Below, in pieces: positions 6,568 to 54,641 of a DNA stretch of 64,000 nucleotides. Source of the DNA: Halomonas fontilapidosi (GTDB taxonomy: Bacteria; Pseudomonadota; Gammaproteobacteria; Pseudomonadales; Halomonadaceae); assembly GCF_014192285.1 (NCBI RefSeq), contig NZ_JACHXQ010000004.1, positions 62,001 to 126,000 on the forward strand, written 5' to 3'. Under the pieces are notes generated by a model that did not search any database, was not told where the DNA came from, and was given only the letters and a program-made list of their open reading frames with translations. Made by a program: the position numbers and the translations under genes. Position 1 is the first letter of the stretch; the number at the start of each line of letters is the position of its first letter.

Positions 6568-6590
6568 AACATACCTCCAATATGAATCTT
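6568..6590 (-). promoter_or_regulatory. Weak NsrR-like 23-bp operator at the cytochrome c/nosR start
   Basis: Read on the minus strand: left half AAGATTCATAT, one base, right half GGAGGTATGTT. The spacing is exactly 11-1-11 as in the other boxes of this window, but the right half doubles as the ribosome binding site, so resemblance may be partly accidental. Confidence 0.35.
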
Positions 6591-6600
6591 TAAGTGCTTG

Positions 6601-6619
6601 AAAAAGCCCGGACCGGGCT
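6601..6619 (-). terminator. Rho-independent terminator after nsrR
   Basis: On the minus strand AGCCCGG-T-CCGGGCT is followed by five T residues. It lies downstream of nsrR but also between the FNR-type box at 6673 and the cytochrome c start, so transcripts from that box would carry it in their leader. Confidence 0.6.
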
Positions 6620-6672
6620 GTGACCACGCCGGGCGAGTGAGGGCATGATGCCAGCCGATACCCGGGCGAGGC

Positions 6673-6686
6673 TTGACGTGCGTCAC
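6673..6686 (-). promoter_or_regulatory. FNR/DNR-type box upstream of the cytochrome c-nosR operon
   Basis: TTGACGTGCGTCAC: TTGAC-N4-GTCAC, one mismatch from TTGAY-N4-RTCAA. With a -41.5 spacing the transcript would start near 6638, about 70 bases before the cytochrome gene. Confidence 0.55.
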
Positions 6687-6751
6687 GTTCAGCCTAGACC
6701 CGAAGGCGGAAAAGGTAAAAGAGGGTGCTAATGCAGGGGTGCCAGCGTGGT

Positions 6752-7204
6752 TCAGCTGGCGGGAGGTACGTCATCGAGCTGCAGCAACCCGATCAGCTTG
6801 GGACGTTGTGGGCCCATCAGATCGGCGAGGGTGTAGTGGTCGAGTACGGCAAGAAAGGCATTAAGGGCTTCTGCCAGGATCGGCTTGAGCCGGCAGGCGG
6901 GCGTGATGACGCATTCGTTGGCGTCGCCGAAGCACTCCACCAGGTTCATGTCACGCTCGGTGTCGCGGACCAGCTCGCCCAGCCGAATCGTCTCCGGGGC
7001 ACGCTTGAGCAGCAGGCCGCCGTTCTTGCCGCGGATGGCGGTGATGTAGCCACGATGATTGAGATCCTGAACGACCTTCATCAGGTGGTTGCGGGAGATC
7101 TCGAAACGCTCGGCGATCTCGGTGATGGTCGAGCGCTGCTCACCCTTGACGGCGAGATAGATCAGCACGCGCAGCGAATAATCGGTGAATCGAGTCAGGT
7201 GCAT
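6752..7204 (-). CDS. nsrR: NsrR, Rrf2-family nitric oxide-sensing repressor
   Basis: 150 residues, MHLTRFTDYSLRVLIYLA, with an N-terminal winged helix (SRNHLMKVVQDLNHRGYI) and the NsrR signature C91, C98, C104 (ECFGDANEC then ITPACRL) that holds the Fe-S cluster. NsrR loses DNA binding when NO attacks the cluster, releasing NO-detoxification genes. Spacing C-x6-C-x5-C and the strings IRGKNGG and ITPACRLK separate it from IscR and RirA. Its own start faces a good 23-bp NsrR operator 130 bases away at 7337, shared with divergent nnrS. Eight candidate operators in the window point to a local regulon. Confidence 0.95.
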   Translation of the reverse strand: MHLTRFTDYSLRVLIYLAVKGEQRSTITEIAERFEISRNHLMKVVQDLNHRGYITAIRGKNGGLLLKRAPETIRLGELVRDTERDMNLVECFGDANECVITPACRLKPILAEALNAFLAVLDHYTLADLMGPQRPKLIGLLQLDDVPPAS

Positions 7205-7336
7205 GGGCGTCCCGGCACGTTGGAGGCCTCGCGAGGCGTAATGACAAAACAGATAATACTAACAGCATGCCAGTTAGCTTTGATTCGCGACTGCGGCATT
7301 CGGTCGCGTAGCGGCGCGGTTGGCGTGATCACAGCT

Positions 7337-7359
7337 AAGATGTAATTTATATGCATGTT
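7337..7359 (+). promoter_or_regulatory. NsrR operator overlapping the nnrS start
   Basis: Left half AAGATGTAATT, one base, right half ATATGCATGTT: the 11-1-11 inverted repeat known for NsrR. The predicted nnrS ATG (7355) falls inside the right half. Confidence 0.75.
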
Positions 7360-8539
7360 ATGTCGCTTTGCCAGTGATCCAGGTCAAACCGGTGGCACCC
7401 GCCGCACCGACCGGCGTCCTGCCTGGACGCTGTTTTTCCCGCTCGCCGCTCTGCATGCGGCCCTGGCGGTGCCGCTGTCGCTGGCGGCGATGTGGGGCTG
7501 GCTTGCTTGGCGACCGGCGCTGACGACACCCTCAGCGCATGGTCGCGAGCTGCTGTTCGGCTTTGCCCTGGCGGTGATGGCGGGATACCTGCTGGGTCCA
7601 TTGTCGCCTCGTCGGCTGGCGCTTCTGGCAGCGTTGTGGCTCGTCGGGCGTCTCGGCGGCTTGGCGGGCCATGCGGCCTGGCCGCTGCTGCTGGCTGATG
7701 TCGGCTTTGCGCTGCTGCTGGCCTGGCAAGTAGTGCCGCGTTTCCTGGCCGCCAAGAAGTGGCGCAACCGCCTGCTCTCGCCGCTGCTCGGGCTGCTCTG
7801 TGTGCTGGCAGTGGCCAGCCTTGTGGTGCACCTGGCCCCTCCAAGCCTGCTCTCTCCAAACCTGCTCTCGCCCCTGTTGCACCAGGGCGTACTCTGGCTG
7901 CTGTTGCTGATGGCCTTCATGGGCGGCCGCGTGATCGCCCCGGCGGTGAACGGGCACCTGATGGCCCGCGACCGGGTGGCCGGGGTCGGCGTTCAGCCGC
8001 GGCTCGAGGCGGCATTGATCGGCCTGCTGGGCGTGGCGGGGCTGCTGGCGATATGGCCGCTGCTATGGCCGCTGGCCGGGGTGATGCTGGTGCTGGCTGG
8101 AGCGGCGATCTTCATACGGCTCTGGCGGTGGGCGCCCTGGGCGCTTGGCGATCGACCGGACCTGCTCGGCCTGTTGCTCGGCTATGCCTGGCTGGGCATG
8201 GGGTCCCTGCGGGTGGCGGTCGACCTCATGGCGGGAGACGCCCCAGCGTCAGGACTGCATGCGCTCACCGTGGGCGCGCTCGGCACCCTGGCCAGCGGCA
8301 TCATGCTGCGCCAGGCCATCCTGAGGGCCAAGGGGCGCCCGGGAGAAGAGCGCTGGCTGCCGCGCCTGGCCCTGTTCTTCTCCCTGGCAGCGCTGTTGCG
8401 GCTCGCGTGGCCGCAGGCCGGCACCCCGGTGCTGTGGGGCGCCGCCGGTGTCTGGAGTCTGGCCTGGCTGCTGGTGGCGTGGCGCCTGGTGCACTGGCGC
8501 CGGCGAGCTGTCGCCAGAGTACCGGCTGCCTCGACTTGA
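7355..8539 (+). CDS. nnrS: NnrS family heme-copper membrane protein, copy 1
   Basis: 394 residues with about 12 hydrophobic segments, beginning after a short tail with WTLFFPLAALHAALAVPL. It has the NnrS hallmarks MGGRVIAPAVNGH and LHALTVGALGTLASGIM. NnrS proteins protect against NO stress and are typical NsrR/NNR targets; the exact reaction is not known. The ATG at 7355 is the only in-frame start upstream of the first membrane helix, which puts it inside the NsrR operator and leaves no clear ribosome site, so the start is uncertain. A second NnrS lies at 32841. Confidence 0.88.
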   Translation: MLCRFASDPGQTGGTRRTDRRPAWTLFFPLAALHAALAVPLSLAAMWGWLAWRPALTTPSAHGRELLFGFALAVMAGYLLGPLSPRRLALLAALWLVGRLGGLAGHAAWPLLLADVGFALLLAWQVVPRFLAAKKWRNRLLSPLLGLLCVLAVASLVVHLAPPSLLSPNLLSPLLHQGVLWLLLLMAFMGGRVIAPAVNGHLMARDRVAGVGVQPRLEAALIGLLGVAGLLAIWPLLWPLAGVMLVLAGAAIFIRLWRWAPWALGDRPDLLGLLLGYAWLGMGSLRVAVDLMAGDAPASGLHALTVGALGTLASGIMLRQAILRAKGRPGEERWLPRLALFFSLAALLRLAWPQAGTPVLWGAAGVWSLAWLLVAWRLVHWRRRAVARVPAAST

Positions 8540-11975: not shown

Positions 11976-12461
11976 ATGTCCCTGCCTCTTCCGTCACTGT
12001 CATTTCCGCAGCCGCTGGCGCCGAGTCGCCTGATCCGCATTCTCGACCCTCGAGTGCCGCTGATCGTCAAGCGTCGGCTGGTTGAGCCTGTGCTCAACCG
12101 TACTTTCGCCGAGCCGCTGGAAGAGGGTGAGTTCGATGCCCTGGAGGGGCGCCGGATCAGTCTGGCCATCGAGGATCTCGGCGTGACGCTGACGCTGAGC
12201 CTTGCGGCGCAGCGCCTGGTGCTCTGTCACGCGCCGGGCGAGGCGACCATCCGTGGTGGCTGGCGTGAGTTTCTCTGCCTGGCGACACGCCGGGAGGACC
12301 CCGACAGCCTGTTCTTCCAGCGCCGGCTGCTGATCGAGGGCGACACCGAGCTGGGCCTGATGGTCAAGAACCTTCTCGACGGTCGCGAGGAGGGGCTGGC
12401 CCAGGGACGCCTGGGAGAGCTGCTGGTCCGCCTGGAGAGGCTTGCACAGCACACGCGCTGA
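11976..12461 (+). CDS. ubiT: UbiT, SCP2-domain accessory factor of O2-independent ubiquinone synthesis
   Basis: 161 residues forming one SCP2 sterol/lipid-binding domain (EGRRISLAIEDLGVTLTLSL and IRGGWREFLCLATRREDPDSLFFQRRLLIEGDTELGL). In E. coli and P. aeruginosa UbiT acts with UbiU and UbiV to hydroxylate ubiquinone precursors without oxygen. Here ubiUV is 4 kb away and nrdJ lies between. An AGGAGA ribosome site precedes the ATG and an FNR-type box lies upstream. An SCP2 domain alone is not specific; the call relies on the DTELGLMVKNLLD-type UbiT pattern and the presence of ubiUV. Confidence 0.86.
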   Translation: MSLPLPSLSFPQPLAPSRLIRILDPRVPLIVKRRLVEPVLNRTFAEPLEEGEFDALEGRRISLAIEDLGVTLTLSLAAQRLVLCHAPGEATIRGGWREFLCLATRREDPDSLFFQRRLLIEGDTELGLMVKNLLDGREEGLAQGRLGELLVRLERLAQHTR

Positions 12462-12499
12462 CCTTATTTCGTTCAATGATTTTTTCCGGAGCCATCCGC

Positions 12500-14611
12500 A
12501 TGAGCACTTCCACCAAGGCAGTGAAGTCATCCAACGAGGTGCCCCTGCAGGGGCCGTCCCGTGACATCTGGGATGCCAAGTATCGCCTTAAGGACCGTCA
12601 CGACCACGCCGTGGACAAGGACGTTACCGCCACCTGGGAACGCGTGGCCCGGGCACTTGCCGCGGTGGAAGGCGACAATGCCGAGACCTGGCTGCCGAAG
12701 TTCCGCTGGGCGCTGGAGAACGGCGCCATTCCGGCCGGGCGGATCATGTCCAATGCCGGCGCCGAGGCCTACAAGCCAGCGGTGAGCCTGATCAACTGCA
12801 CCGTCTCGCGCACCATCCGCGATTCCATGCACGACATCCTCGACTCGGTGGTGGATGCCGGCATGACCCTCAAGGCGGGCTGCGGCATCGGCTACGAGTT
12901 CTCCACCCTGCGCCACAAGGGCGCCTTCGTGTTCGGCGCCGGCGCCGGCACCAACGGCCCGCTGGCGTTCATGGATATCTACGACAAGATGTGCTTCACG
13001 GTGGCCTCGGCGGGTGGGCGCCGTGGCGCTCAGATGGGCACCTTCGACGTCGGCCATCCTGACGTGCGTCAGTTTATCGAGGCCAAGCGCGAAGCGGGCC
13101 GGCTTCGCCAGTTCAACCTCAGCCTGCTGATCACCGACGAGTTCATGGAAGCCGTGAAGAACGACGCCGACTGGCCGCTGGCCTTCCCGCTTCACGAGGG
13201 CGAGAAGGACGACGTCGAGGAAAGCGAGCTGATCTACCGCGACTGGCCGGTGGTCGAGGAGGGGTACACCGTCGACGCCGAGGGGCGCGTGGCCTGCCGC
13301 ATTGTCGAGGTGATCAAGGCCCGCGAGCTGTGGGACACCATCATGGCCTCGACCTACGACTTTGCCGAGCCAGGCTTCATCCTGATCGACCAGGTCAATC
13401 GCATGAACAACAACTGGTTCTGCGAGGAGATCCGCGCCACCAACCCCTGCGGTGAGCAGCCGCTGCCTCCCGAGGGCGCCTGTCTGCTGGGCTCGGTGAA
13501 TCTGACCCGTTTCGTCATCGACCCCTTCGGCAAGAAGCCCCGCTTCGACTGGGAGCGCTACCGCCAGGTGGTGGCGATCTTCACTCGCATGCTCGACAAC
13601 GTGGTGGAGATCAGCGGCCTCCCGCTGGAAGGCCAGCGCAAGGAGATCGAGGCCAAGCGCCGTCACGGCATGGGCTTTCTGGGCCTGGGCTCTACCCTGA
13701 CCATGCTCAAGATCCCCTATGGCTCTCCCGAGTCGCTGGCCTTTACTGAAGAGGTGAGCCGCAACCTCGCCCTCGAGGGCTGGAAGCAGGCGCTTGAGCT
13801 CTCGCGCGAGAAGGGAGTGGCGCCGGCCCTGGCCGAGGACTACGCGATCACCCCGCGGATGATGCGCGAGCGCCCCGAGCTCAAGCAGGACGGCTACGAA
13901 GTCGGCGACAAGGTGCCCGGCCGCATCCTGCACGCCCGCTACAGCCGCTATATGCAGAAGGTCGCCGAGGTGGAGCCGGAGCTGGTGGCCCAGCTCGCCG
14001 AGCACGGCGCGCGCTTCACCCACCACAGCTCCATCGCCCCCACCGGCACCATCTCGCTGTCGCTGGGCAACAACGCCTCCAACGGCATCGAGCCCTCCTT
14101 CTCGCACCGCTATTTCCGCAACGTCATCCAGTCGGGCAAGAAGACCAAGGAGCAGGTCGAGGTGGTCTCCTTCGAGCTGGCGGCCTATCGCCACTTCATC
14201 GCCGCCGACGCCGTAGAGAGCGACCTGCCCGATTATTTCATCACCGCCGACGCGGTGAGCCCGAAACAGCACGTGGCGGTGCAGGCCGCCGCCCAGGTAT
14301 GGGTGGACTCGGCCATCTCCAAGACGGTCAACGTGCCCACCGAGTTTGCCTTCGAAGACTTCAAGGACCTCTATCTCGACGCCTACGCCAGCAAGCTCAA
14401 GGGCTGCACCACCTTCCGCTTCAACCCGGAGGCCTTCCAGGGCGTGCTGGTGCGCGAGGACGATCTCAAGAACACCACCTATGTCTTTGAACTCGAGAAC
14501 GGCGAGACCGTCGAGCTGGCGGGCGACGAGAAGGTCATCTACGACGGCGAGGAGCACAACGCGGCGAACCTCTACGACGGGCTGAAGGAAGGTACCTATG
14601 GCAAGTGGTAA
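12500..14611 (+). CDS. nrdJa: NrdJa, large part of split B12-dependent class II ribonucleotide reductase
   Basis: 703 residues holding the catalytic barrel of an adenosylcobalamin-dependent ribonucleotide reductase. Seen: the first active-site Cys in SLINCTVSRTI, the finger-loop NPCGEQPLPPEGACLLGSVN with the thiyl-radical Cys and Glu, and SIAPTGTISL (substrate phosphate binding). The C-terminal redox cysteines are missing here and are carried by the next gene, the same split as in P. aeruginosa nrdJa/nrdJb. The start at 12500 (MSTSTKAVKSS) follows a CCGGAG site; an upstream in-frame ATG at 12476 has no such site. Class II enzymes work with or without oxygen, fitting denitrifying growth. Confidence 0.95.
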   Translation: MSTSTKAVKSSNEVPLQGPSRDIWDAKYRLKDRHDHAVDKDVTATWERVARALAAVEGDNAETWLPKFRWALENGAIPAGRIMSNAGAEAYKPAVSLINCTVSRTIRDSMHDILDSVVDAGMTLKAGCGIGYEFSTLRHKGAFVFGAGAGTNGPLAFMDIYDKMCFTVASAGGRRGAQMGTFDVGHPDVRQFIEAKREAGRLRQFNLSLLITDEFMEAVKNDADWPLAFPLHEGEKDDVEESELIYRDWPVVEEGYTVDAEGRVACRIVEVIKARELWDTIMASTYDFAEPGFILIDQVNRMNNNWFCEEIRATNPCGEQPLPPEGACLLGSVNLTRFVIDPFGKKPRFDWERYRQVVAIFTRMLDNVVEISGLPLEGQRKEIEAKRRHGMGFLGLGSTLTMLKIPYGSPESLAFTEEVSRNLALEGWKQALELSREKGVAPALAEDYAITPRMMRERPELKQDGYEVGDKVPGRILHARYSRYMQKVAEVEPELVAQLAEHGARFTHHSSIAPTGTISLSLGNNASNGIEPSFSHRYFRNVIQSGKKTKEQVEVVSFELAAYRHFIAADAVESDLPDYFITADAVSPKQHVAVQAAAQVWVDSAISKTVNVPTEFAFEDFKDLYLDAYASKLKGCTTFRFNPEAFQGVLVREDDLKNTTYVFELENGETVELAGDEKVIYDGEEHNAANLYDGLKEGTYGKW

Positions 14612-14665
14612 ACCGATCTGTCTGATGCCCAGTGCCACCCAACAACTTTCCGGAGGAGCCTCCTG

Positions 14666-15418
14666 ATGGCCGTCGAGATCAATTCCAAGATCGTGTCCTA
14701 TAGCGTCAAGAAGGCGGTGGAAGAGCCGCCCCTGGCCGAAGAGAACCCGCTCACGGTGCGCATCCCCTCGCGCCCCGAGGGCACCCTGGAGGCCGTGTCG
14801 GAGAAGATCTCCTACGTCGGCGCCGAGGGGCGCAAGAAGGTCTATCTGCTGGTGTCGTTCATGCCGGTGGAGGGCGTGCTCAACGGCAAGCGGGTGGTGA
14901 TCGAGCGCCCGGTGGAGTTCTTCTTCCCCTCCGGCCAGCTCTCCAGCGAGCACCAGTGGATCACCGCCACCATGCGCAGCCTGTCGCTGGCGGCTCGCGG
15001 CGGCTACGTCACCCAGGCGGTGGCCGATCTGCGCAAAGTGGCCTGGGACAAGGGCCTGGTGCGCTGCGGCATGAACCGCTGGGGCAAGCCGATGTTCCAC
15101 GACTCCGAGGTCGCGGCCATCGCCTGGTCGATCCAGCAGATTCTCTATCGTCGCGGCTTTCTCGACCAGGACGGCAACCAGGTCCCGGTGGAAGAATTGG
15201 TCAGCCGCTATGCCCAGCGCCTGGCCAGCGGTCATCCCTGGCAGCCGCCCACCACGGAAGAGCTCGAGCAGGCCGAGCGCAAGGCTCAGCACGCCGCCCA
15301 GGCGAAGGGCGACGGTCCCACCGTTGTCGGCCACTGCCCCGAGTGCAACGGCGAGCTGATCATGATGGACGGCTGCCCCACCTGCTACTCCGGCTGCGGC
15401 TGGTCCAAGTGTGGATAA
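14666..15418 (+). CDS. nrdJb: NrdJb, C-terminal part of split class II ribonucleotide reductase
   Basis: 250 residues. It completes NrdJa: it carries the TSCPD-like segment and a C-terminal cysteine-rich tail (CPECNGELIMMDGCPTC then YSGCGWSKCG) that would re-reduce the active site. A strong GGAGGAG site precedes the ATG, 54 bases after nrdJa. As the two are separate genes in several pseudomonads, the split is probably real and not a frameshift: both have proper starts, and the joint is long and in a different frame. Confidence 0.93.
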   Translation: MAVEINSKIVSYSVKKAVEEPPLAEENPLTVRIPSRPEGTLEAVSEKISYVGAEGRKKVYLLVSFMPVEGVLNGKRVVIERPVEFFFPSGQLSSEHQWITATMRSLSLAARGGYVTQAVADLRKVAWDKGLVRCGMNRWGKPMFHDSEVAAIAWSIQQILYRRGFLDQDGNQVPVEELVSRYAQRLASGHPWQPPTTEELEQAERKAQHAAQAKGDGPTVVGHCPECNGELIMMDGCPTCYSGCGWSKCG

Positions 15419-15484
15419 GCAGGCTCTTCCTAGGCTCTGTGGATAACCCAGGCCAGTCGAACTGAACGCCCGTTTTCGCAACGC

Positions 15485-15519
15485 CAACGCCCCGGGATGC
15501 ACAAGCAGCCGGGGCGTTG
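15485..15519. terminator. Hairpin between nrdJb and the convergent radical SAM gene
   Basis: Perfect 11-bp stem CAACGCCCCGG with CCGGGGCGTTG and a 13-base loop. There is little T-tract on either side, so it is probably a terminator but a weak one. Confidence 0.6.
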
Positions 15520-15548
15520 TCGTTGGTAGGGACACATTGCCACCGGGC

Positions 15549-16295
15549 TCAGTGGCGCAGCTCGAGCCGCGCGAAGTGGGGCGTCAGCCGTCGAGCCAAG
15601 GCCTCCAGCGCCTCCCGGGGCGGTGCGCCGGCCACCGGCAGGCAGTAGTCGGGGTCGCGGCAGCGCTCCACGCGGGCCACCTGAATGGCATAGCGACGCA
15701 CGCCGCAGTCGGCCAGCGTCATCGCCAGGCGCTCCAGGTCCTCCAGGGCGAAGTCCCGCCAGTGCACCGTGGTGCGGCATTCGAAAGGGGTGTTGCCCTC
15801 CAGCAGCAGCGAGAGGCTTCGAGCATGCTGCTGCCAGATGCCGCGGCGGCCGCAGATCCGGTCGAAGTCTCGCCCGCGTCCCTTGACGTCCAGCGCCACC
15901 CAGTCCAGCTGTGGCAGCAGGGCGGCCAGGCGCTCCGGGTAGGGGCCGGCGGTATGCAGCCCCACGGCCAATCCCATCTCGCGCGCCTGCTCCAGGGCGC
16001 GTGGCAGGTCGGCATGCAGGGTGGGCTCGCCGCCGCTGAACACCACGGCATCGAGCCCATCGGGTCGGGCCTGAAGGAACGCGCGCATCGCCTCCCACTC
16101 GCCGGGGTCGCCGCGGCGGGTGGGGGCCATCTCGCTCACCTCGCAGTAGCCACACTGCAGCGGACAGCCCTGGAGGTGGATCACGGTGGCACGCCGGCCG
16201 GGGAAATCCGCGGTACTCGACGTCGTCAAGCTGGCCACCGGCAGGCGGATGTCGGAGGTCTCCTCCGGTTCGAGGCGCAGGGCGGAGCCGATCAT
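15549..16295 (-). CDS. NrdG2-type radical SAM activating protein
   Basis: 248 residues; the cluster motif is C44-PLQ-C48-GY-C51, with a following GGEPTLHADL SAM motif and the leader TADFPGRRATVIHLQGC typical of anaerobic ribonucleotide reductase activase-like proteins. These install a glycyl radical on class III NrdD. No nrdD is in the window, while a class II enzyme that needs no activase sits next door. The ATG overlaps the ubiV stop (ATGA), so it is in one operon with ubiU-ubiV. It could serve NrdD elsewhere or have another radical SAM role linked to quinone synthesis. Confidence 0.78.
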   Translation of the reverse strand: MIGSALRLEPEETSDIRLPVASLTTSSTADFPGRRATVIHLQGCPLQCGYCEVSEMAPTRRGDPGEWEAMRAFLQARPDGLDAVVFSGGEPTLHADLPRALEQAREMGLAVGLHTAGPYPERLAALLPQLDWVALDVKGRGRDFDRICGRRGIWQQHARSLSLLLEGNTPFECRTTVHWRDFALEDLERLAMTLADCGVRRYAIQVARVERCRDPDYCLPVAGAPPREALEALARRLTPHFARLELRH

Positions 16296-17212
16296 GATGC
16301 CTCCCGCCCTTGGGTATGCGCCATGCCGGGCCGGCCGTTCCAGTAGCCGTCACAGATCTCGGCATCGACCAGGGCAAGCGGGTCCGGCGCCGGCAGGGTG
16401 CCGTCGCGCGCGGCATCGAAGACGCTGACCACCTCGGCCATGCCGTCGGGGCGCGGGCTCAGGCGCGCCAAGCTGACGCCCATCTCGGCCATGTCCGGTA
16501 CCTCGTGGCGCAGGTCCTGGCAGGCGCCGGAGAGGGTCTGGATGCCGTTGAGGTTGAAGACCTGGGCCGCTTCCTGGGTGCGCAGCGCCAGGCCTTCGGG
16601 ATGCTTCTGGCAGACGAACTGGCAGCGGTCCTTGGGCTTCTGGTAGCGGCGTGCGGTGAAGCAGCGCGACGACCAGGCCAGCGGCAGGTGGCCGTAGGCA
16701 AACACCTCGCAGGGTGTCTCGAGCCCCTGCTCGCGGCAGTCGGCGAGCAGCCGGGTAAGGTCCTGCTTCGACATTTCCACTGGGGCTTGCCAGCGCTGCA
16801 TGCCGGCGCGCTTGAGCACGCTCAGAGTGGCCGGGTTGTAGAGGTTCAGCGCCGCTCCGGCAGTGAACGGCAGGCTTGCTGTCGTAAGGCGCTGCACCGC
16901 GCTTTGATCGTTGGCCTCGACGATGAACTCGCCGTTGTCGCAAAGCTTGCGCAGGTCGCGCAGGTCGGCCTCGGACTCGATCAGGGTCTGGCTCGAGAGC
17001 ACCACCTGCTTGCCGCTCTGGGCCAGCTCGCGGCCTATCCCCAGCCAGTCATCGAGTTTCATGTCGCGGCGCCGCGAGCAGACCGACTCGCCCAGGTGGA
17101 CGATCTCCACCGGCCAGTCGGCGGCCTCGCGGTAGAAGTCGGCGTAGCGCTCGCGGGTCCAGTAGAAGAGCACCGGGCCCAGCGACAGTTGGAGCATGGG
17201 GGTGGCGGACAT
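16292..17212 (-). CDS. ubiV: UbiV, U32-family Fe-S protein for O2-independent ubiquinone synthesis
   Basis: 306 residues of the U32 'peptidase' family. UbiV and UbiU form a heterodimer with one [4Fe-4S] cluster each that hydroxylates ubiquinone intermediates without oxygen. The four expected cysteines are seen: C45 (GESVCSRRR) and C184, C197, C201 (the C-x12-C-x3-C block CFTARRYQKPKDRCQFVC). The start at 17212 (MSATPML) has AGGAG at spacing 7, directly after the ubiU stop; the longer frame to 17242 would start inside ubiU. It is co-transcribed with ubiU and the NrdG2-like gene. Confidence 0.93.
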   Translation of the reverse strand: MSATPMLQLSLGPVLFYWTRERYADFYREAADWPVEIVHLGESVCSRRRDMKLDDWLGIGRELAQSGKQVVLSSQTLIESEADLRDLRKLCDNGEFIVEANDQSAVQRLTTASLPFTAGAALNLYNPATLSVLKRAGMQRWQAPVEMSKQDLTRLLADCREQGLETPCEVFAYGHLPLAWSSRCFTARRYQKPKDRCQFVCQKHPEGLALRTQEAAQVFNLNGIQTLSGACQDLRHEVPDMAEMGVSLARLSPRPDGMAEVVSVFDAARDGTLPAPDPLALVDAEICDGYWNGRPGMAHTQGREAS

Positions 17213-17222
17213 GGGCGCTCTC

Positions 17223-18329: not shown

Positions 18330-18419
18330 GACGGGGCGATGCGCACGCTATCCGACGCGGTGTTGAGCGAGTGTCTGGCCTAACCTGGGATCAGGCCTGT
18401 TCACCGGTCGGGAGTCGTC

Positions 18420-18848
18420 ATGGACATTGAAGGCCTGTTCGATGTCAGCTACGTGCGTGTGCTGAGCCGGGAGGTCGAGGGGCGGGAGTTCTTCGAGGCC
18501 TTCTATGAGCGATTTATTGCGTCCTCGCCAGCCGTCGCCGCGAAGTTTCGCCATACCGACATGGCGCGCCAGCGGGCCATGCTGAAAAAGTCCTTCTATC
18601 ATCTGCTGGCGTTCTATGTGTCGAGCCATGCCGACTACTATCTCCAGGCGGTGGCGATCAGCCACGATCGCGCCCACCGCGATATCCACCCGGCCCTCTA
18701 TGACCTCTGGCTCGAGACCCTGATCGACACGGTTCGCACCTTCGACGAGCAGTTCGATGACGACGTCGAGCTGGCCTGGCGGCTGGTGATGACGCCGGGC
18801 ATTGTTTTCATGACCTTCCACTACGACCGATGCGACCCCGCCGGTTAG
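18420..18848 (+). CDS. Single-domain globin-like protein
   Basis: 142 residues, all helical, with a globin pattern: an A-to-E helix block (VEGREFFEAFYERFIASSPAVAAKF then MLKKSFYHLLAFY) and a likely proximal His in the F-helix region (VAISHDRAHRDIHPALYDLW). There is no reductase domain, unlike Hmp. Such globins bind oxygen or NO; a role in NO or heme handling is inferred from its position, divergent from ubiUV and facing its own FNR-type box. The function is not known for this subgroup. Confidence 0.72.
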   Translation: MDIEGLFDVSYVRVLSREVEGREFFEAFYERFIASSPAVAAKFRHTDMARQRAMLKKSFYHLLAFYVSSHADYYLQAVAISHDRAHRDIHPALYDLWLETLIDTVRTFDEQFDDDVELAWRLVMTPGIVFMTFHYDRCDPAG

Positions 18849-19027
18849 GCCAGTATCTCGAGGACTCCAGGGGCGAAGTCCAGGGAGGCCAATGCCGTGG
18901 AAGCGTTTTCGTGTCGGATCAAGACGAGGTGGCTGGTCGGGCGTCGTATAGCGGGCAGAAGTCGGCCTCAGGCCGACGATGTCGTGACGCCTCCTCTTGA
19001 CGCTGAGAGGGCATTGGCTACCTTTCA

Positions 19028-41229: not shown

Positions 41230-41235
41230 CCACCC

Positions 41236-42150: not shown

Positions 42151-42169
42151 GATACCCGGGAGCTTGATC

Positions 42170-47589: not shown

Positions 47590-48113
47590 GGCTGGCGGCC
47601 TTGCTGTTGCGCATTGCTCTCCAGATGGCGGCGGGCATCGGCGATGGCCGCCTGGATGTTGCGGTAGGCCCCGCAACGGCACAGGTTGCCGCTCATCGCG
47701 TCACGGACCGCGGCATCGTCGGTGGCGGCCTCCGGGTCCTCAAGCAGGGCCACGGCGGACATGATCTGCCCCGGGCTGCAGTAGCCGCACTGGTAGGCGT
47801 CATGCACGAGGAAAGCTTCCTGAACCGGGTGCAGTTGCCCCTTTTCCGCCAGTCCCTCGATGGTGGTGATGGCCTGGCCCTCGCACATCGCCGCCAGGCG
47901 CAGACAGGCATTCACCGCGCGGCCATCGACATGCACCGTGCAGGCGCCACACTGGCCATGGTCACAGCCCTTCTTGGTGCCACCGAGGTGCAACTGATCG
48001 CGTAGCACATCAAGCAGGATGGCCTGTGGGGGGACCTCGAGGGTGACTGGCTCACCGTTCAGGATCAGCCGGACGGTCAGGGTGGCGTCGGGAGGCGAGA
48101 GGGACATCTGCAT
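47586..48113 (-). CDS. paoA: [2Fe-2S] subunit of the molybdenum hydroxylase (PaoA type)
   Basis: 175 residues with two [2Fe-2S] domains: CDHGQCGAC plus a later Cys, then CGYCSPGQ and CRCGAYRNI. The start at 48113 (MQMSLSPPD) has GGAG at spacing 6; an ATG at 48155 is in frame with a poor site. No Tat signal is seen, unlike periplasmic E. coli PaoA, so this enzyme may be cytoplasmic. Confidence 0.88.
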   Translation of the reverse strand: MQMSLSPPDATLTVRLILNGEPVTLEVPPQAILLDVLRDQLHLGGTKKGCDHGQCGACTVHVDGRAVNACLRLAAMCEGQAITTIEGLAEKGQLHPVQEAFLVHDAYQCGYCSPGQIMSAVALLEDPEAATDDAAVRDAMSGNLCRCGAYRNIQAAIADARRHLESNAQQQGRQP

Positions 48114-48211
48114 TGTCAGCTCCGCGTCGGATATCGGTAGCGAGGAAGGGGACATTCGGGATCTGGAGAATGTCTTTCAGCCTAGCAGCCGATCGGACTT
48201 GGGGTTAACCG

Positions 48212-48259
48212 CGTCGCATCCGCCGGCTGCGTCGCGAGTTCGAGGCGCTGCGCCCGCGG
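48212..48259 (+). pseudogene. Fossil fragment of a norD-like gene
   Basis: Sixteen codons translate as RRIRRLRREFEALRPR, identical at 15 of 16 positions to NorD RRIRRVRREFEALRPR of this window, while only 38 of 48 bases match and nearly all differences are at third codon positions. It therefore derives from a diverged homolog that was once under selection. An in-frame TAA lies two codons upstream and a TAG ten codons downstream. It lies between paoA and iadA, 4.8 kb from intact norD. Confidence 0.62.
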
Positions 48260-48261
48260 TG

Positions 48262-49437
48262 CTACGGCGAGTCGTCCCTGGCATAGACTCGCTTCCCTGC
48301 CACGAAGGTCTGCTGCGGCTGGAGGTCGTCGTCGAGCAGGGTCACGTCGGCATCGAAACCGGCGGCCAGGCGGCCCTTCTGGCCATCGAGCCCGAGCACC
48401 CGCGCCACGTTTCCCGAGATCAGGCCCAGGGCCTGGTCGAGTGGCAACACCTCCTCGCGCACCAGGCGCTGCCAGTCCGCGATCAGGGCGGTGTTGCGCG
48501 CCACCCGCATGCCGATGTAGTGACCCTGGGCATCGAACTCGGGCAGGCTGCCGTTGCAGTCCGAGCTCATGGTGATGTGCTCGACCGGCACGCCGCGCAG
48601 GAGCAGCCGGGAGACGGCATCGAAGCCGGAGAGACCCTCCTCGCCGGGGTCCTCGAAGGCGGTCACATCCACGCTGGCGGCAAAGGCCAGCGCATAGTCG
48701 GCAGCCTCCTCGAGCAGCACGCGGTGGCGGTTGACGTGGGTGGGTATCACCTGGTCGGCGGGAATCTCGGTCTCCGCGAGCAGCCGGCGCAGCGGCTCGA
48801 GTCCCCGCTGGCCGTCACCGACATGGAAGTGACAGATGCCGCGCTTGCCGGCCAGCATGGCACCGACGCGCACCTCGCTGACCAGCCGCGCGATCTCGTC
48901 CTGGCGGGGCTGGCTGGAGCGGTGGTCCGAGATCGCCAGCTCGCCCAGGCCGATGACCTCGGGGATCCAGGCCAGGTCGCGCTGCAGGTCGCCGGTGAGG
49001 GTCGGTGGCGGCACGCGATAGGACCCCGTGTACATGTAGGCCGCAATGCCCTCGGCCCTGAGTCCCCGGACCTTGGCCAGCAGGTCCGCCGGCGAGCGGC
49101 TGATGCCGTCGGTGCCCAGCACCCCCACCACGGTGCCAATGCCCATGGCGGCGATCTCCCGGGCGGTGATCTCCGGGCAGCGGGTGCCGCAGCCGCCTTC
49201 GCCGCCGCCACCCGTCACATGCACATGCTGGTCGATAAAGGCAGGAACGGCGGTCAGATCACGCGCCTCCACGACCCGCACCGGCCAGCCCGTCGGGACG
49301 TCGAGCTCTCGCCCCAAGGCCGCTAGCCGGCCGTCGGCGATCAGCAGGTCGGTCGCCTCGAGGGGCTGGGGGGCGAAGATGCGACCGACGCGCAGCAGGG
49401 TCAGCAGGGGGGCGTCCCGCTCATCGAGGGGCATCAT
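48262..49437 (-). CDS. iadA: Isoaspartyl dipeptidase (IadA type)
   Basis: 391 residues of the amidohydrolase superfamily: metal-binding DQHVHVTGGGGEGG, bridging region PTHVNRHR, catalytic MSSDCNGSLPEF. IadA cleaves beta-Asp-X dipeptides, here fitting the beta-Asp-Arg released from cyanophycin by CphB. The ATG at 49437 overlaps the cphA stop, so cphB-cphA-iadA form one operon. Confidence 0.9.
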   Translation of the reverse strand: MMPLDERDAPLLTLLRVGRIFAPQPLEATDLLIADGRLAALGRELDVPTGWPVRVVEARDLTAVPAFIDQHVHVTGGGGEGGCGTRCPEITAREIAAMGIGTVVGVLGTDGISRSPADLLAKVRGLRAEGIAAYMYTGSYRVPPPTLTGDLQRDLAWIPEVIGLGELAISDHRSSQPRQDEIARLVSEVRVGAMLAGKRGICHFHVGDGQRGLEPLRRLLAETEIPADQVIPTHVNRHRVLLEEAADYALAFAASVDVTAFEDPGEEGLSGFDAVSRLLLRGVPVEHITMSSDCNGSLPEFDAQGHYIGMRVARNTALIADWQRLVREEVLPLDQALGLISGNVARVLGLDGQKGRLAAGFDADVTLLDDDLQPQQTFVAGKRVYARDDSP

Positions 49438-52067
49438 GGTGACTCACCGTTGGGGTCAGTCGCCGCCGGTGGCGAGAAGCGACGACCCTTCAGGCGCTCG
49501 ATGGCGCCCTCGACATCGTCGATCAGCAGCACCAGCAGGTCACCTTCGCAGGCTTCGTCGAAAGCCCGGTCGACGGCCTGGTGCTCCTCCAGGACGATCT
49601 CGACCCGACAGCCCCCCATCGATTCGGCACCGTCGCGCAGCAGGTCGGCGGCTTCACCGACGGCGCGACCGCGGGCATCGGTCTCGTAGATGACGACGAC
49701 GTCGTGCATCCGGGCGAGCAGGGTGCCGAGGCTGACGAGGTCCTCGTCACGGCGATTCCCCGGGGCGCTGGCCACGCTGATGCGTCGTCGGGCCGGAATG
49801 CAGCCGACCAGTTCGCTCAAGGCCTCGAGCGCCGGCACGTTGTGCCCGTAGTCGATCAGCACCTTCATGCCGTTGGCGTCGATGAGGTTGGTGCGTCCGG
49901 GATTCTGTCCGGGGGTGGGGTGGAAGGTCTGCAGGCCCATCTGGATATCGGCGATGGAGAGCCCCAGGGCATAGGCGGCCGCGCTGGCGGCCAGGGCATT
50001 GGCGACATTGAAGCGGGCATGGCCCTCGAAGGTGATCGGCACGTCCACCACCGGGATCACCTCGGCCTCGACCTGGCCCAGACGCATCACGATGCGTTCC
50101 TGGTGGACCGTGAAGGCCACCCCGTGATCGCGGACATGCTGGCGGATGGAGGCAGCCTCCGGGTCCAGGGTGAAGAAGGTGACATCGCCTCGCGCCCACT
50201 CCTGGCCGGCCATCACCCGCGGGTCATCGGCATTGAGCACGGCCGTCCCGCCCTGGCGCACGGCATCGATGACAACGGTCTTGCAGCGTGCCAGCTCGTC
50301 GAGGGTGTGGATGTCATGCTCCCCCAGGTGGTCGCTGGCGATGTTGAGCAGTACCCCCACGTCGCATTCGTCGAAGCCGAGGCCGCGGCGCATGATGCCG
50401 CCACGGGCCACTTCGAGCACGGCGTATTCGACCGTGGGTTCGCGCAGCACGATGGCCGCCGCCTGGGGGCCACTGTAGTCGCCGCGCATGATGACATGGT
50501 TGTCGATCTCGATGGCGCCGGTACAGGCCATGCCGACGTTGCGTCCCGCCTGGCGGAGCAGGTGTGAGAGCAGGCGTACCGTGGTCGTCTTGCCGTTGGT
50601 CCCGGTCACCGCCACGATGGGAATGCGGGCGTCGGTCTCGCTGTCCGGGAACAGCATGTCGATCACAGGCTGGCCGACATCGCGTCCCTCGCCGTGCGTG
50701 GGCGACAGGTGCATGCGAAAACCGGGTCCGGCATTGACCTCGACCACCGCGGCGGCCTGCTCCTCCAGGGGCCGGGTCAGGGTCTCGGCCAGCAGGTCGA
50801 TGCCGATGATGTCGAGCCCGACCAGCCGCGCGATCCGCTCCGCCGCGTAGCGTACTTCCGGGTGGACGTCGTCGGTCACGTCCGTGGCCGTGCCGCCGGT
50901 GCTGAGATTCGCCGTGGGCTTCAGGTAGACGATCTCGCCGGCCGGGATGACGCTCTGCAGGCTCAGGTCCTGCTGGCCGATCAGCCTCAGCGACTGCTCG
51001 TCGAGCTGGATCTGGGTGAGCAGGTTCTCATGGCCGACGCCGCGACGCGGGTCCTGGTTCTCCCTGTCGACCAGGGCCTGCAGGGTGGCGACGCCATCGC
51101 CGATCACATGGGCCGGGCGGCGCCTGGCCGCGGCCACCAGCTTGCTGTCGATGACCAGCAGACGGTGGTCCTCGCCCTCGATGTACTGCTCGACGATCAC
51201 CGAGGGGTTGTGGCGGGAGGCGATGCCGAAGGCCTCGCGCAGGGCCTGGTCATCGTCGACGTTGGTGCTCACGCCGCGGCCATGGTTGCCGATCAGCGGC
51301 TTCACCGCGACGGGGTAGCCGATGGCGTGCGCGGCCTCGAGGGCGTCATCGAGGCAGTCGCAGACACGGCCCTCGGGAACCGGAATGCCGGCATCGCCGA
51401 GCACCTGCTTCGTCCAGGCCTTGTCACCGGCGATGCCGTAGCCGATCAGGTCCGTATGGCCGGTTACCGTCGCCTGGATCCGCTGCTGGCGGTGGCCGTG
51501 ACCCAGCTGGATGTAGCTGTTTTCCTCGCTCAGGCGGATGTGGGGAATGCCACGACGCTCGGCGGCCGCAATGATCGAGGCGGTGGAGGGCCCCAGCATG
51601 TGGGCGTCGCGCACCTGCTTGAGGCGCTCGATGATCGCCGGCATGTCGATCGCCTCGCCGGCGAACAGTCGCTCGACGAGGTCGACAGCCTCGATCCCGG
51701 CCGCCAGGCCGCAGGCCTCGTCACGGTAGCGGTAGACGACGTTGTAGATACCGGGCTCGTAGCTGTCGACGGTCTTGCCGTAGCCCACCGAGAAGCCGAT
51801 CAGGTTCTGCAGCTCGATCGCCACATGCTCGACGACATGGCCGGCCCAGGTGCCACGCTCCAGTCGCTCCAGGAAGCCGCCGGGCCGGCCCACCGAGCAG
51901 CGGTGCTCCTGCAGGGTCGGTAGCAGGGCGGCAGTCCGCTCGACGATACCGGCGACGGTATCGCTTGGCTTCTCCTCGAGGTCGCCGATGTCCAGGCGCA
52001 TGAAGATCGCCGGGTAGCGGCTGTAGTAGTTCGGGCCGCGCAGTGCCCGGTGCTCGAGAATGTTCAT
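49434..52067 (-). CDS. cphA: Cyanophycin synthetase CphA1
   Basis: 877 residues. Polymerises Asp and Arg into multi-L-arginyl-poly-aspartate, a nitrogen reserve. N-terminal domain, then an ATP-grasp domain (AVKPLIGNHGRGVSTNV, EQYIEGEDHRLLVI, NAGPGFRMHL) and a C-terminal Mur-ligase domain (VTGTNGKTTTVRLL, NADDPRV, DYGHNVPAL). This order is that of CphA1. It overlaps cphB and iadA by a few bases on either side. Confidence 0.95.
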   Translation of the reverse strand: MNILEHRALRGPNYYSRYPAIFMRLDIGDLEEKPSDTVAGIVERTAALLPTLQEHRCSVGRPGGFLERLERGTWAGHVVEHVAIELQNLIGFSVGYGKTVDSYEPGIYNVVYRYRDEACGLAAGIEAVDLVERLFAGEAIDMPAIIERLKQVRDAHMLGPSTASIIAAAERRGIPHIRLSEENSYIQLGHGHRQQRIQATVTGHTDLIGYGIAGDKAWTKQVLGDAGIPVPEGRVCDCLDDALEAAHAIGYPVAVKPLIGNHGRGVSTNVDDDQALREAFGIASRHNPSVIVEQYIEGEDHRLLVIDSKLVAAARRRPAHVIGDGVATLQALVDRENQDPRRGVGHENLLTQIQLDEQSLRLIGQQDLSLQSVIPAGEIVYLKPTANLSTGGTATDVTDDVHPEVRYAAERIARLVGLDIIGIDLLAETLTRPLEEQAAAVVEVNAGPGFRMHLSPTHGEGRDVGQPVIDMLFPDSETDARIPIVAVTGTNGKTTTVRLLSHLLRQAGRNVGMACTGAIEIDNHVIMRGDYSGPQAAAIVLREPTVEYAVLEVARGGIMRRGLGFDECDVGVLLNIASDHLGEHDIHTLDELARCKTVVIDAVRQGGTAVLNADDPRVMAGQEWARGDVTFFTLDPEAASIRQHVRDHGVAFTVHQERIVMRLGQVEAEVIPVVDVPITFEGHARFNVANALAASAAAYALGLSIADIQMGLQTFHPTPGQNPGRTNLIDANGMKVLIDYGHNVPALEALSELVGCIPARRRISVASAPGNRRDEDLVSLGTLLARMHDVVVIYETDARGRAVGEAADLLRDGAESMGGCRVEIVLEEHQAVDRAFDEACEGDLLVLLIDDVEGAIERLKGRRFSPPAATDPNGESP

Positions 52068-52912
52068 CGACTCTCCGCGAGAATGGCGCCGAGTTCGTGG
52101 GGGACGAGATAGCGCCGTGCCTCGATGTCGAACCCGTGGCCGCTGACCAGCGCATGGAGGATCATGTGCTCGACGGCCACCGGTTCGCCCATGGAGAGGT
52201 CGGCAATGTTCGAGCTCGCCAGGTCCCGGCTGTCGATGAGGACGACATGGCCCGGCCCGATGGCCTCGAGGATGCCGTTGGGGTGGATGATCACGCCGGC
52301 ATCCTCGCCCAGGCCCACCCCGAGGTATTCCGGGTTGCTTGCCCCGACCTCCATCAGGCGCGTGAAGCGCCCGCGCTCGAGGAAGTGGCTGTCGATGATG
52401 AGGCCATCGACGAAGCCCAGGCCGAAGGTCATGTTGACGGCGCCCTTGCGCAGGGCATCGGCGGCGGCGCCGTTGTAGATCATGGTGCCCGGCATGGCTG
52501 CCGCACCGGCACTGGTCCCGGCCACCACTGCGCCGTCCTCGAGGCGATCACGGATGGCACTCAGCACCGGAGATCCCCCCAGGACATTGGTCAGGCGCAG
52601 CTGATCACCGCCGGTGAAGAAGATGACGCCGCTCTGTTTGATCAGGCGAACGGTGTCATCCTCGGCCGCCTGCTGGCGGTCCCGGATCCCCAGCAGATGG
52701 ACGCGGCTGGCGCCGAGGCGAGAGAAGGCCGCTTCATAGTCGGGCAGCACCTCGTCGGGAATGCCACTCGCGGTGGCGATGACGGCGACCTCGTCCTGGC
52801 CCTCGGGGGCCAAGGCAAAGACCTCCCGCAGGATCTCGAGATCGGAGGTCCTGTCCTCGGCGCCGCCGATGGCCACGATGCGGCCGGGTGCCACGGGGTG
52901 TTGGGAAGTCAT
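52064..52912 (-). CDS. cphB: Cyanophycinase CphB
   Basis: 282 residues, serine peptidase family S51. The nucleophile motif is VVAGTSAGAAAMPG, with GGDQLRLTN and DSHFLERGRFTRL. Hydrolyses cyanophycin to beta-Asp-Arg. The frame is open to 53011 (GTG start), but the ATG at 52912 (MTSQHPVAP) starts the family-like part; its ribosome site is weak, so the start is not certain. Confidence 0.92.
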   Translation of the reverse strand: MTSQHPVAPGRIVAIGGAEDRTSDLEILREVFALAPEGQDEVAVIATASGIPDEVLPDYEAAFSRLGASRVHLLGIRDRQQAAEDDTVRLIKQSGVIFFTGGDQLRLTNVLGGSPVLSAIRDRLEDGAVVAGTSAGAAAMPGTMIYNGAAADALRKGAVNMTFGLGFVDGLIIDSHFLERGRFTRLMEVGASNPEYLGVGLGEDAGVIIHPNGILEAIGPGHVVLIDSRDLASSNIADLSMGEPVAVEHMILHALVSGHGFDIEARRYLVPHELGAILAESR

Positions 52913-53154
52913 AACTTTCGTCGCCGAGCGACGCTTTTGAGCCAACGCAGCAGCCACGTTCGCGTGAGTCAGTTGCCGAATGGGCAGGGTGCTTGCTGCC
53001 TGCACTTTCACTTATAACAGGCATCTCGGCGCGGGGCACGATCTTGCTGGTTTACCGTAACGACAGGAGGTGACGCGAGATCGCGACGTGCCAGCGGGCG
53101 CCGGGGGGTCTCTCGCCTTCGCACCGCGGCAGGGGGGAGCGGCCGGCGTCGGCG

Positions 53155-53442
53155 TCAGCCGGTCAGCCGCGCTACCAGGTAGCCGCCGGCGATCAGTGCC
53201 AGCGTCAACACCACCAGGCCCACGAAGGTGCCCTTCCAGGCCGGCGTGGCGGCGCGCAGGTTGAGGTAGACCATCAGCAGCCGCTGGGCCTTGAAGCCGG
53301 TGGCGGCGATCACCAGGCCCGCCGACCATAGCGGCAGTGCCTGCCAGCTGTCCTGATCCAGCTGCGCCGAGATCATCGAGAGCAGCGTCAGGGCCATCAG
53401 CGTGGCCCAGGTAATGAGCAGGCGGCGGGTGCCGGGCAGCAT
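53155..53442 (-). CDS. norF: NorF-like small membrane protein (cytochrome oxidase subunit IV family)
   Basis: 95 residues, three membrane helices (LLITWATLMALTLLSMIS, LPLWSAGLVIAATGFKAQRLLMVYLNL, FVGLVVLTLALIAGGYLVA), with the conserved K-x-x-x-x-D/Y-like segment of COX4-type proteins. In Paracoccus NorF and NorE assist NO reductase activity. Separated from norE by a repeat array. Confidence 0.8.
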   Translation of the reverse strand: MLPGTRRLLITWATLMALTLLSMISAQLDQDSWQALPLWSAGLVIAATGFKAQRLLMVYLNLRAATPAWKGTFVGLVVLTLALIAGGYLVARLTG

Positions 53443-53463
53443 GTCATGGTCACCTCGGGAGGG

Positions 53464-53565
53464 AGCCCTCAGCTTTTTGTTTGATAGAGAGCCCTCAGCT
53501 TGATAGATAGCCCTCAGCTTGATGGAGAGCCTTCAGCGCAATAGGGAGCCATCAGCTCAACGTAA
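53464..53565. repeat. Degenerate 19-bp direct repeat array between norE and norF
   Basis: About five copies of a unit like AGCCCTCAGCTTGATAGAG, starting at 53464, 53490, 53509, 53528 and 53547. Copies 2-5 are spaced exactly 19 bases apart; the first holds a 6-7 base T-rich insertion. The last overlaps the norE stop codon. No spacer/repeat structure of CRISPR type. Confidence 0.8.
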
Positions 53566-54126
53566 TAGATAGAGCAGCGGGTAGAGCAGGATCCAGATCA
53601 GGTCGACCATGTGCCAGAAGGCGGCAGCGGTCTCCACGTTCTCGATGGAGGTCCGCCAGGTCACCAGCGCCAGCAACGCCAGGCCAAATAGCACATGGGC
53701 AAAATGGAACGCCGTGAGCCCATAGTAGAAACCGAAGAAGGCGTTGGTCTCCGGGGTGATGCCGACGGCGAACTTGCCGGCATACTCGATGCCCTTGATG
53801 ACGCCGAACAGCACACCCAGCGCCATGGAGGCACCCAGCCACTGGCGGGTACGGCGAATCCGTCCGGCGCTCACCGCCTCCACCGCCAGGGCTACGAAGA
53901 GTCCGCTGGTCAGCAGTACCAGGGTATTGAGCCCACCCAGCAGCGGATCGAGCTCGCGCTGGGAGGCATTGAAGAGGGCCGTTGCCGCCACTCGTTCCGC
54001 GGCATACAGCGCGAAGAAGGCGCTGAAGACCAACATCTCGCTGAGGATCAGCACCCACATCAGCGGGTTGCCGGGCAGCGCCGAGAGCGGTCCCCAGCCG
54101 GGATTGGGAAGTGCCCGTTCCTTCAT
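53557..54126 (-). CDS. norE: NorE-like heme-copper oxidase subunit III family protein
   Basis: 189 residues, five membrane helices, COX3 family: NPLMWVLILSEMLVFSAFFALYAAER, FFGFYYGLTAFHFAHVLFGLALLALVTWR, AAFWHMVDLIWILLYPLLYLLR (the FWHxVDxxW motif). Typical of NorE in denitrifiers. Its start overlaps the stop of the membrane gene upstream. Standing 9 kb from norCBQD, it is a separate operon here. Confidence 0.9.
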   Translation of the reverse strand: MKERALPNPGWGPLSALPGNPLMWVLILSEMLVFSAFFALYAAERVAATALFNASQRELDPLLGGLNTLVLLTSGLFVALAVEAVSAGRIRRTRQWLGASMALGVLFGVIKGIEYAGKFAVGITPETNAFFGFYYGLTAFHFAHVLFGLALLALVTWRTSIENVETAAAFWHMVDLIWILLYPLLYLLR

Positions 54127-54563
54127 TCGTCGGCCAGGGTCACCCGGGCACCGCCAAAGGCCAGGCTGCGCGGGTCGGCCACCGGCTGGTTGGAGGTCAG
54201 GCGGCTGATGCCCACGCCGCAGCGCGCCACCATCCAGATCAGGCAGACGGTGAAGTAGACATAGCCCAGCGCCCAGGGCGCCACGGCTGGAGCGCCCACC
54301 AGCCCCAGCAGCTGCCAGGTGGCGACGAATAGCCCACCGCCCAGCATGCCCAGCCAGAAGGTGCGGATCTGGAACTGCAGATGGCTTTCTACCCAGGGCT
54401 CGGCGCGCTGGCGCTTGAGGTGGGCGATCAGTACGCCGATAGGCGCGGTGACGACGGTGAGCACGCTGCCCAGGAAGAGCATGTAGACGACGATGGCCAC
54501 GCCGCGGCCACGAGCGCTCTTGTCGGCGTTGACGGGCAATTCATGGGCCAGGGATTGGGACAT
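54123..54563 (-). CDS. Membrane protein of the norEF operon, unknown function
   Basis: 146 residues with three or four membrane helices (IVVYMLFLGSVLTVVTAPIGVLIAHL, FQIRTFWLGMLGGGLFVATWQLLGLV, APWALGYVYFTVCLIWMVARCGVGI). Pattern like small DUF4870-type membrane proteins. Start MSQSLAHELP at 54563 with GAGG upstream; a longer frame to 54632 lacks support. First gene of a coupled operon with norE and norF, hence a candidate NO-reduction accessory protein. Confidence 0.72.
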   Translation of the reverse strand: MSQSLAHELPVNADKSARGRGVAIVVYMLFLGSVLTVVTAPIGVLIAHLKRQRAEPWVESHLQFQIRTFWLGMLGGGLFVATWQLLGLVGAPAVAPWALGYVYFTVCLIWMVARCGVGISRLTSNQPVADPRSLAFGGARVTLADE

Positions 54564-54618
54564 GGGAGATACCTCGCATCCGGCAGGTCGGCCGGGACCA
54601 TATCGAGGCCCCGACCTA

Positions 54619-54641
54619 TTGATGTATTTCATATGCCACTA
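54619..54641 (-). promoter_or_regulatory. Moderate NsrR-like box upstream of the norE operon
   Basis: Left half TTGATGTATTT, one base, right half ATATGCCACTA on the plus strand. The core GATGTAT is good, the far half degenerate. It would cover the start point predicted from the box at 54666; TATAGT on the minus strand (54638-54643) is a possible -10. Confidence 0.45.

Follow-up and report, generated by a model that had tools for sequence, protein, structure and literature searches.

Predicted NsrR operators at denitrification genes of Halomonas fontilapidosi

In the NsrR regulons predicted for gamma- and beta-proteobacteria, hmp and nnrS are common members, norB and nirK belong to the regulon in Neisseria, C. 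violaceum and other beta-proteobacteria, and nos does so in P. profundum; the consensus published for the operator is gATGyAT-N5-ATrCATc (available parts of Rodionov 2005, PMC1274295). In Magnetospirillum, NsrR was reported to bind and repress napF, nirT, norC and nosZ and to be released by nitric oxide (NO) (PMC11014258), and a later paper described it as dispensable for magnetosome formation (PMC12774639), so that the magnetosome claims of this work are disputed, as far as the available text of both papers goes. A survey of Halomonas genomes described one species group in which nos has NsrR, NorR and NnrS nearby, and nir and nar have Dnr; NsrR sites do not figure in the available parts of that survey (PMC8014003). 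Here, we describe a stretch of 64 kb (hereafter the window) from the Halomonas fontilapidosi assembly (3.60 Mb in 23 contigs), for which an earlier note had claimed eight operators of the NO-sensing repressor NsrR.

Seven of these predicted operators lie within 33 kb beside nsrR, and we consider it very probable that NsrR binds them and keeps the denitrification genes, the NO-protection genes and the gene of a hexameric tyrosine-coordinated heme protein (HTHP) off until NO appears. The window comprises nosD-nosZ-nosR-cytochrome, nsrR, nnrS1, hemN, HTHP, hmp, nirS with heme d1 genes, nnrS2, norCBQD and a norE-like gene, followed by NarK-like and NarX-like genes toward its end. Judged by NsrR, its nearest named relatives are Halomonas species.

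NsrR-type sites in the window and in related genomes

The eight sites have the coordinates and sequences that the earlier note gave them, and the inverted repeat of 23 base pairs (bp) has imperfect halves, with 6 to 9 of 11 positions symmetric. With up to three mismatches, the original pattern was found five times in the window and never in 100 shuffles; across the whole assembly it gave six sites, five of them inside the window, and its reversed control gave none. A degenerate pattern, AASAWKYATNNNNNATRMWTSTT, matched eight times with up to two mismatches in 3.6 Mb (window positions 6568, 7337, 19028, 20748, 25024, 32753 and 39261, plus C8:135710), and the reversed pattern again had no match.

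Sites were further scored with a symmetric matrix built from 29 distinct sites of relatives, the window excluded, and partly made from nnrS1 and nos loci (the main matrix). The claimed sites took ranks one to eight in the window, and seven of them (6568 to 39283) scored 21.5-37.2, against maxima of 16.0 in 60 simulated windows and of 16.3 in a further 396 kb from the same genome; the latter value served as the site threshold below. These seven are thus specific against the genomic background. The eighth, before the norE operon (54619 to 54641, minus strand), scored only 10.4, a level of at least 10 being reached at nine background places, and the view of eight equal sites was dropped, since this one lies in the noise under the matrices. 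Except for a shifted overlap at 25013, nothing else in the window exceeded 6.5, in agreement with the statement that the ABC-transporter and cyanophycin genes carry no site. Two further matrices made from other genomes only, one from norC loci (27 distinct sites) and one from hmp loci (25 sites), again placed the same seven at ranks one to seven in the window. Two matches elsewhere in the genome, C14:62657 (10.8) and C8:135710 (14.2), the latter preceding an outer-membrane-type open reading frame, were both within background and were rejected.

The claim that NsrR-type operators stand before nnrS1, hmp, nirS, norC, nnrS2, the nos cytochrome gene and a supposed secreted-protein gene, concentrated in the window with one NsrR, therefore held for these seven. 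They fit 10-13 of the 14 core positions of the published consensus (12/14 at both hmp and nnrS1), and the motif is, by its sequence, the published NsrR motif. As in the known regulons, the palindrome is found at the hmp and nnrS promoters and is conserved there. The highest-scoring operator (37.2; 20748 to 20770, minus strand) precedes hmp, which encodes the NO dioxygenase flavohaemoprotein (19557 to 20747, minus strand; NCBIfam match over cut-off), and recurs at 27/30 loci, our own genome being counted within this and every other set of 30. The operator in the nsrR-nnrS1 intergenic region (7337 to 7359, plus strand, 36.7) lies at the start of nnrS1 (7355 to 8539, plus strand; Pfam NnrS) and was present in all 40 orthologues found among 80 named loci. 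The norC operator (39261 to 39283, plus strand, 25.6) precedes norC, norB, norQ and norD (39352 to 44116, plus strand; Pfam cytochrome c, COX1, CbbQ/NirQ/NorQ and VWA); it was found at 30/30 nearest loci and in 18 of 20 more distant regions, fetched from 39 further genomes with norB. Before nnrS2 (32841 to 34055, plus strand; Pfam NnrS, 343 bits) is a site (32753 to 32775, plus strand, 21.5) that was in position at 29/30 loci and reached the threshold of 16.3 at 27/30.

The nos genes are headed by a cytochrome c gene (6247 to 6567, minus strand, ATG at 6567; first gene of the operon, heading nosRZD), and nosR and the twin-arginine translocation-dependent nosZ (2137 to 6356, minus strand) match NCBIfam models over their cut-offs. 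Here, the NsrR-type site (6568 to 6590, minus strand, 25.3) overlaps the Shine-Dalgarno sequence; the best site was exactly at -23 from the ATG in 22/24 orthologues and at or above the threshold in 17/24, five orthologues under 60% identity being excluded from this set. Upstream of the norE genes, the position of 54619 was the best-scoring one at 29/30 loci, with at least 16.3 at only 5/30; the gene itself (53557 to 54126, minus strand) encodes a norE-like protein of the COX3 family (Pfam).

The nsrR gene (6752 to 7204, minus strand), predicted to encode a NO-sensing repressor of the Rrf2 family, was confirmed with its three cysteines. Cys91, Cys98 and Cys104, in the C-terminal part, align with the cysteines of the NsrR structure 5n07, and Asp8 is aligned too; 5n07 and 7b0c, both NsrR, were the best PDB matches (5n07, E 1.6e-23), and the Rrf2 superfamily model was matched above its cut-off. 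NorR gave seven matches in this genome, none of them above cut-off, and was dropped as the NO sensor.

Promoters of nirS and norC and the weighing of alternatives

The nirS gene, encoding cytochrome cd1 nitrite reductase (25178 to 26905, plus strand; family matches) and followed by nirDL-like, nirJ, nirE-like and nirN-like heme d1 genes, is preceded by an NsrR-type operator (25024 to 25046, plus strand). In 27/30 loci an aligned site was present, with at least 16.3 in 19/30, and the 23 bp of the operator lie at the 93rd percentile of conservation within the upstream region. Upstream of it is a box of the form TTGAY-N4-RTCAA, typical of DNR/FNR-type activators (TTGACGCAGGTCAA, 24978 to 24991, plus strand), and norC is arranged likewise (TTGACCGGCGTCAA, 39217 to 39230, plus strand). 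Box and site start 46 bp apart at nirS and 44 bp at norC in the window; this distance was 45-46 bp in 27/30 nirS regions, and 43-45 bp in 29/30 norC regions as well as in all 18 distant regions that have the site. At nnrS2, the two elements form a composite in which the NsrR site starts 11 bp before the overlapping box (32764 to 32777), a box being found at that place in 28/30 loci. A box read in the sequence upstream of the nos cytochrome gene (GTGACGCACGTCAA, 6673 to 6686, minus strand) precedes the site by about 96 bp, and 23/24 orthologues have a box in that place.

Perfect boxes were counted 28 times in the genome and five times in the window, against three in the control. As boxes are spread over the genome and NsrR sites are in the window, the box system is global and the NsrR sites local. 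Several proteins could bind the boxes, judged by their sequences: a DNR-like protein encoded 10.6 kb beyond the window (L150; best PDB match DNR 3dkw, E 1.1e-23; best NCBIfam model FtrB, below cut-off) and either of two FNR-type proteins of the same genome with an N-terminal cysteine all fit. The promoters of nirS and norC thus have what is expected of DNR/FNR-activated promoters, with a box at a fixed distance and activator genes in the genome. The earlier note had spoken of a different wiring from the DNR model: NsrR-type operators do occur at nirS and norC, but NsrR would not replace DNR there, both promoters keeping their boxes, and the version with NsrR in place of DNR was dropped on these grounds. 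Because these boxes stand at a fixed distance from the sites and DNR-like and FNR-type proteins are encoded in the genome, NsrR likely adds a second lock to promoters of the DNR/FNR type. A transporter of the major facilitator superfamily and a NarK-like transporter are preceded by perfect boxes, at 56162 and 60025, respectively, with no NsrR site beside either; in the window, the predicted NsrR sites reach no further than the NO half of the pathway.

The nirS operator is not a general property of nirS in the genus. A second nirS, about 46% identical, occurs in at least 29 of 90 genomes, and served as a negative control: each of its 20 fetched upstream regions has two boxes and none reaches even a score of 10. 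An NsrR site is likewise absent from three of the 30 nearer nirS regions, of 73-79% identity. The NsrR lock therefore seems tied to one nirS lineage, and one genome (G125) has both types, one with a site (C1:182668, 24.8) and one without (C1:125956). The norC operator, by contrast, is common across the sampled members of the genus. At nirS, many orthologues share an odd variant, RCGCGTT, as the right operator half (25038-25046), perhaps a weak operator that has been kept.

A number of observations speak against a single NsrR regulon of seven operators. The degenerate pattern was picked after the sites were known, so that its count of only eight matches hangs on this choice. Under the hmp-locus matrix one background place tops the nos site, the background lying below all seven sites otherwise under the cross-gene matrices; this matrix takes the best site per locus and hence may contain some HTHP sites. 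Orthologue counts come from related species and genomes and so are not independent events, and those for nnrS1 and nos lean on the main matrix, partly made from these very loci. Part of the right half of the nos site is explained by its overlap with the Shine-Dalgarno sequence. The norE site fits 12/14 core positions in spite of its noise-level score, which indicates that the count of core matches alone does not discriminate. Finally, at nirS the operator is degenerate in its right half (ATACGCGTT), and scores of only 8.2-15.0 were obtained for 8 of the 27 aligned sites.

These nirS scores, together with the modest 22.9 of the window site, the four mismatches that separate the nos and nnrS2 sites from the consensus of the earlier note, and the second nirS type with its boxes and no NsrR site, would fit a narrower regulon. 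NsrR would then govern only hmp, nnrS1, HTHP and norC, the sites at nirS, nos and nnrS2 being decayed or too weak and their genes run by the DNR/FNR-type activator alone. We regard this as unlikely, given the conserved nirS site at its constant distance past the box in 27/30 regions and the fact that all seven sites beat the 396-kb background under the main matrix.

The palindrome might also serve as operator to a different Rrf2-type regulator, one resembling IscR or RirA. At 146 bits, the NsrR match falls short of the NCBIfam cut-off of 182, which is a naming rule rather than a property of the protein, and RirA is the second of the nine models matched, with 125 bits against the best score for NsrR. 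The genome also encodes two more Rrf2-like proteins (C2:483657 and C8:8709), but both are only 25% identical to the NsrR of the window, the motif is identical with that published for NsrR, two of the sites flank nsrR, and the genes concerned are mostly those of NO metabolism or denitrification, which makes this explanation very improbable. The name NsrR is used here because best match, residues, context and motif are taken together. That AT-rich palindromes arose by chance in AT-rich promoters of a GC-rich genome might be suspected from the AT-rich motif, the window of 66% GC (guanine plus cytosine) and the background level of the norE site, but is refuted for the other seven, and has a negligible probability, since these exceed a score of 20 that none of the 60 simulated windows and nothing in 396 kb attains, the reversed-pattern control is empty, and the sites are conserved among orthologues.

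HTHP and the proposed NO switch

The site at 19028 to 19050 (plus strand, 25.4) lies 3 bp past a promoter-like pair, TTGACG-16-TACCTT. The gene behind it had been described as that of a secreted protein; it encodes HTHP (19070 to 19414, plus strand), a heme protein without known role that has an N-terminal signal-like segment. The match to Pfam PF11534 reached 127 bits against a gathering score of 25 bits, and residues 41-114 matched PDB 2oyy (E 3.6e-26). A minus-strand open reading frame (18348-19028) was also considered for the secreted protein and was rejected, as it matched no family.

Among 250 genomes of the family, 32 have HTHP. At 23/30 loci an NsrR-type site of at least 16.3 lies upstream, and the same holds for 13 of the 18 loci that have no hmp within 1.5 kb. 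Among the seven loci below the threshold, two have sites of 14.7-15.1, three, all from one other genus, score 9.8-11.8, and at two there is nothing. When the upstream regions of the 30 loci were shuffled, the expectation was 0.11 sites in total; their downstream windows gave three, and not one of 772 windows of background DNA, each of 500 bp, reached 16.3. HTHP is therefore newly predicted, from these upstream sequences, to be a member of the NsrR regulon. No literature joining HTHP and NsrR was found, and that on tyrosine-coordinated heme and NO was limited to electrochemical sensors among the papers found; we have found no earlier lead to the regulation of HTHP.

HTHP also occurs in plasmids, with 27 matching records, seven of which were examined, six of these being annotated. 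An Rrf2 regulator is near HTHP in 3/6 annotated plasmids, and in the seven examined no site of at least 16.3 was detected beside HTHP with the Halomonas matrix, the sites found lying elsewhere (L377 1513, L375 751, L379 14387). In three alpha-proteobacterial plasmids, HTHP is located near an Rrf2 regulator and hemerythrin or group III truncated hemoglobin (L374 2968-8225, L377 3036-8222, L375 5075-8890). Two of these three have HTHP after rrf2 and ccoNO-type genes, with the palindrome AATAGGTATTGTAAATACCAATT, or one near it, directly before rrf2.

From the sites, their spacing and conservation, and an NsrR with its cysteines, which are features of the DNA itself, we infer a mechanism of binding, cluster chemistry, repression, AND gate and feedback. 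NsrR is predicted to hold an iron-sulphur cluster, and reaction of NO with this cluster would lift NsrR from its operators. These follow or overlap likely -10 elements (read by eye as TACGCT at norC, TACCTT at HTHP and TATAAC at hmp) or, for nos, cover the Shine-Dalgarno sequence, so that repression by occlusion is the likely, predicted mode. Judged by their position, the operators of nirS and norC likely cover the -10 or start region; a sigma-70 scan at nirS returned no consensus promoter, and its -10 position is placed by analogy with norC. At both promoters an AND gate probably operates, opened when an anaerobic DNR/FNR-type activator is bound and NsrR is gone. Because NirS makes NO, this NO would free the nirS promoter, and derepression would be self-amplifying. 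The same repressor would govern Hmp and Nor as removers of NO and NnrS as protector, resulting in a switch with built-in sinks.

A wider proposal, which we put forward tentatively and rate slightly below an even chance, is that of an island with its own NO switch, in which NsrR and a DNR/FNR-type activator gate nirS and norC for an all-or-none start of denitrification, HTHP takes part in NO defence across the Halomonadaceae, and the lock is restricted to one nirS type. NO-gated nir expression bears on the release of NO and nitrous oxide by denitrifiers. The conserved two-site promoter is open to exact operator mutations, and the genus offers a natural control, with nirS genes that do and do not have an NsrR site, both in genome G125.

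Several neighbouring genes complete the picture of the window. Between hemN and HTHP/hmp (11976-18218) are an SCP2-domain protein, the coenzyme-B12 ribonucleotide reductase NrdJ and a pair of U32-type proteins; we take the SCP2 and U32-type proteins to resemble UbiT, UbiU and UbiV of oxygen-free ubiquinone synthesis. The region between the nor and norE genes (49434-53011) encodes a cyanophycin synthetase-like protein and an S51 peptidase, presumably cyanophycinase-like. An open reading frame of 435 amino acids (48019-49326) matched no Pfam or NCBIfam family at the limits used.

Comparison with described NsrR systems

The regulons of Rodionov 2005 (PMC1274295) share the palindrome as well as hmp and nnrS with the window, whereas nirS, HTHP and Halomonas do not appear in the available parts of that study; here, nirS, norC, nos and HTHP have sites. 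If the present reading is true, nirS, norC and nos would be added to the NsrR regulon of classical motif. A published map of these Halomonas sites was not found in a literature survey that was not exhaustive. In Magnetospirillum, the likeness to the Halomonas island lies in denitrification genes reported to be under NsrR and in release by NO (PMC11014258, available text).

Neisseria is similar in that FNR activates aniA (nirK) and NsrR sites occur at the genes of nitrite and NO reductase; it differs in its copper NirK, in a motif with changes at two symmetric positions and in having no DNR, and nos and HTHP are not named for it in the available parts of the source (PMC1274295). The nic cluster of Thermus thermophilus likewise encodes its own NsrR, which controls nirS, nirJ and norC alongside regulators named Dnr, and its NirS is of the cd1 type (PMC5748679). 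There, NsrR was assigned CTTGACCNNGGTCATGG and represses nirS yet activates nirJ and norC; DnrS takes part, as does DnrT for nirJ and norC, and DnrT, of the DNR family, is nearly without effect on nirS, according to the available text (PMC5748679). The Halomonas window differs from this in a classical NsrR palindrome that stands apart from the TTGAY-N4-RTCAA box, and in repression being predicted throughout. NsrR control of nir and nor thus has precedents, and what its sequence suggests here is that NsrR likely acts on top of a DNR/FNR-type box.

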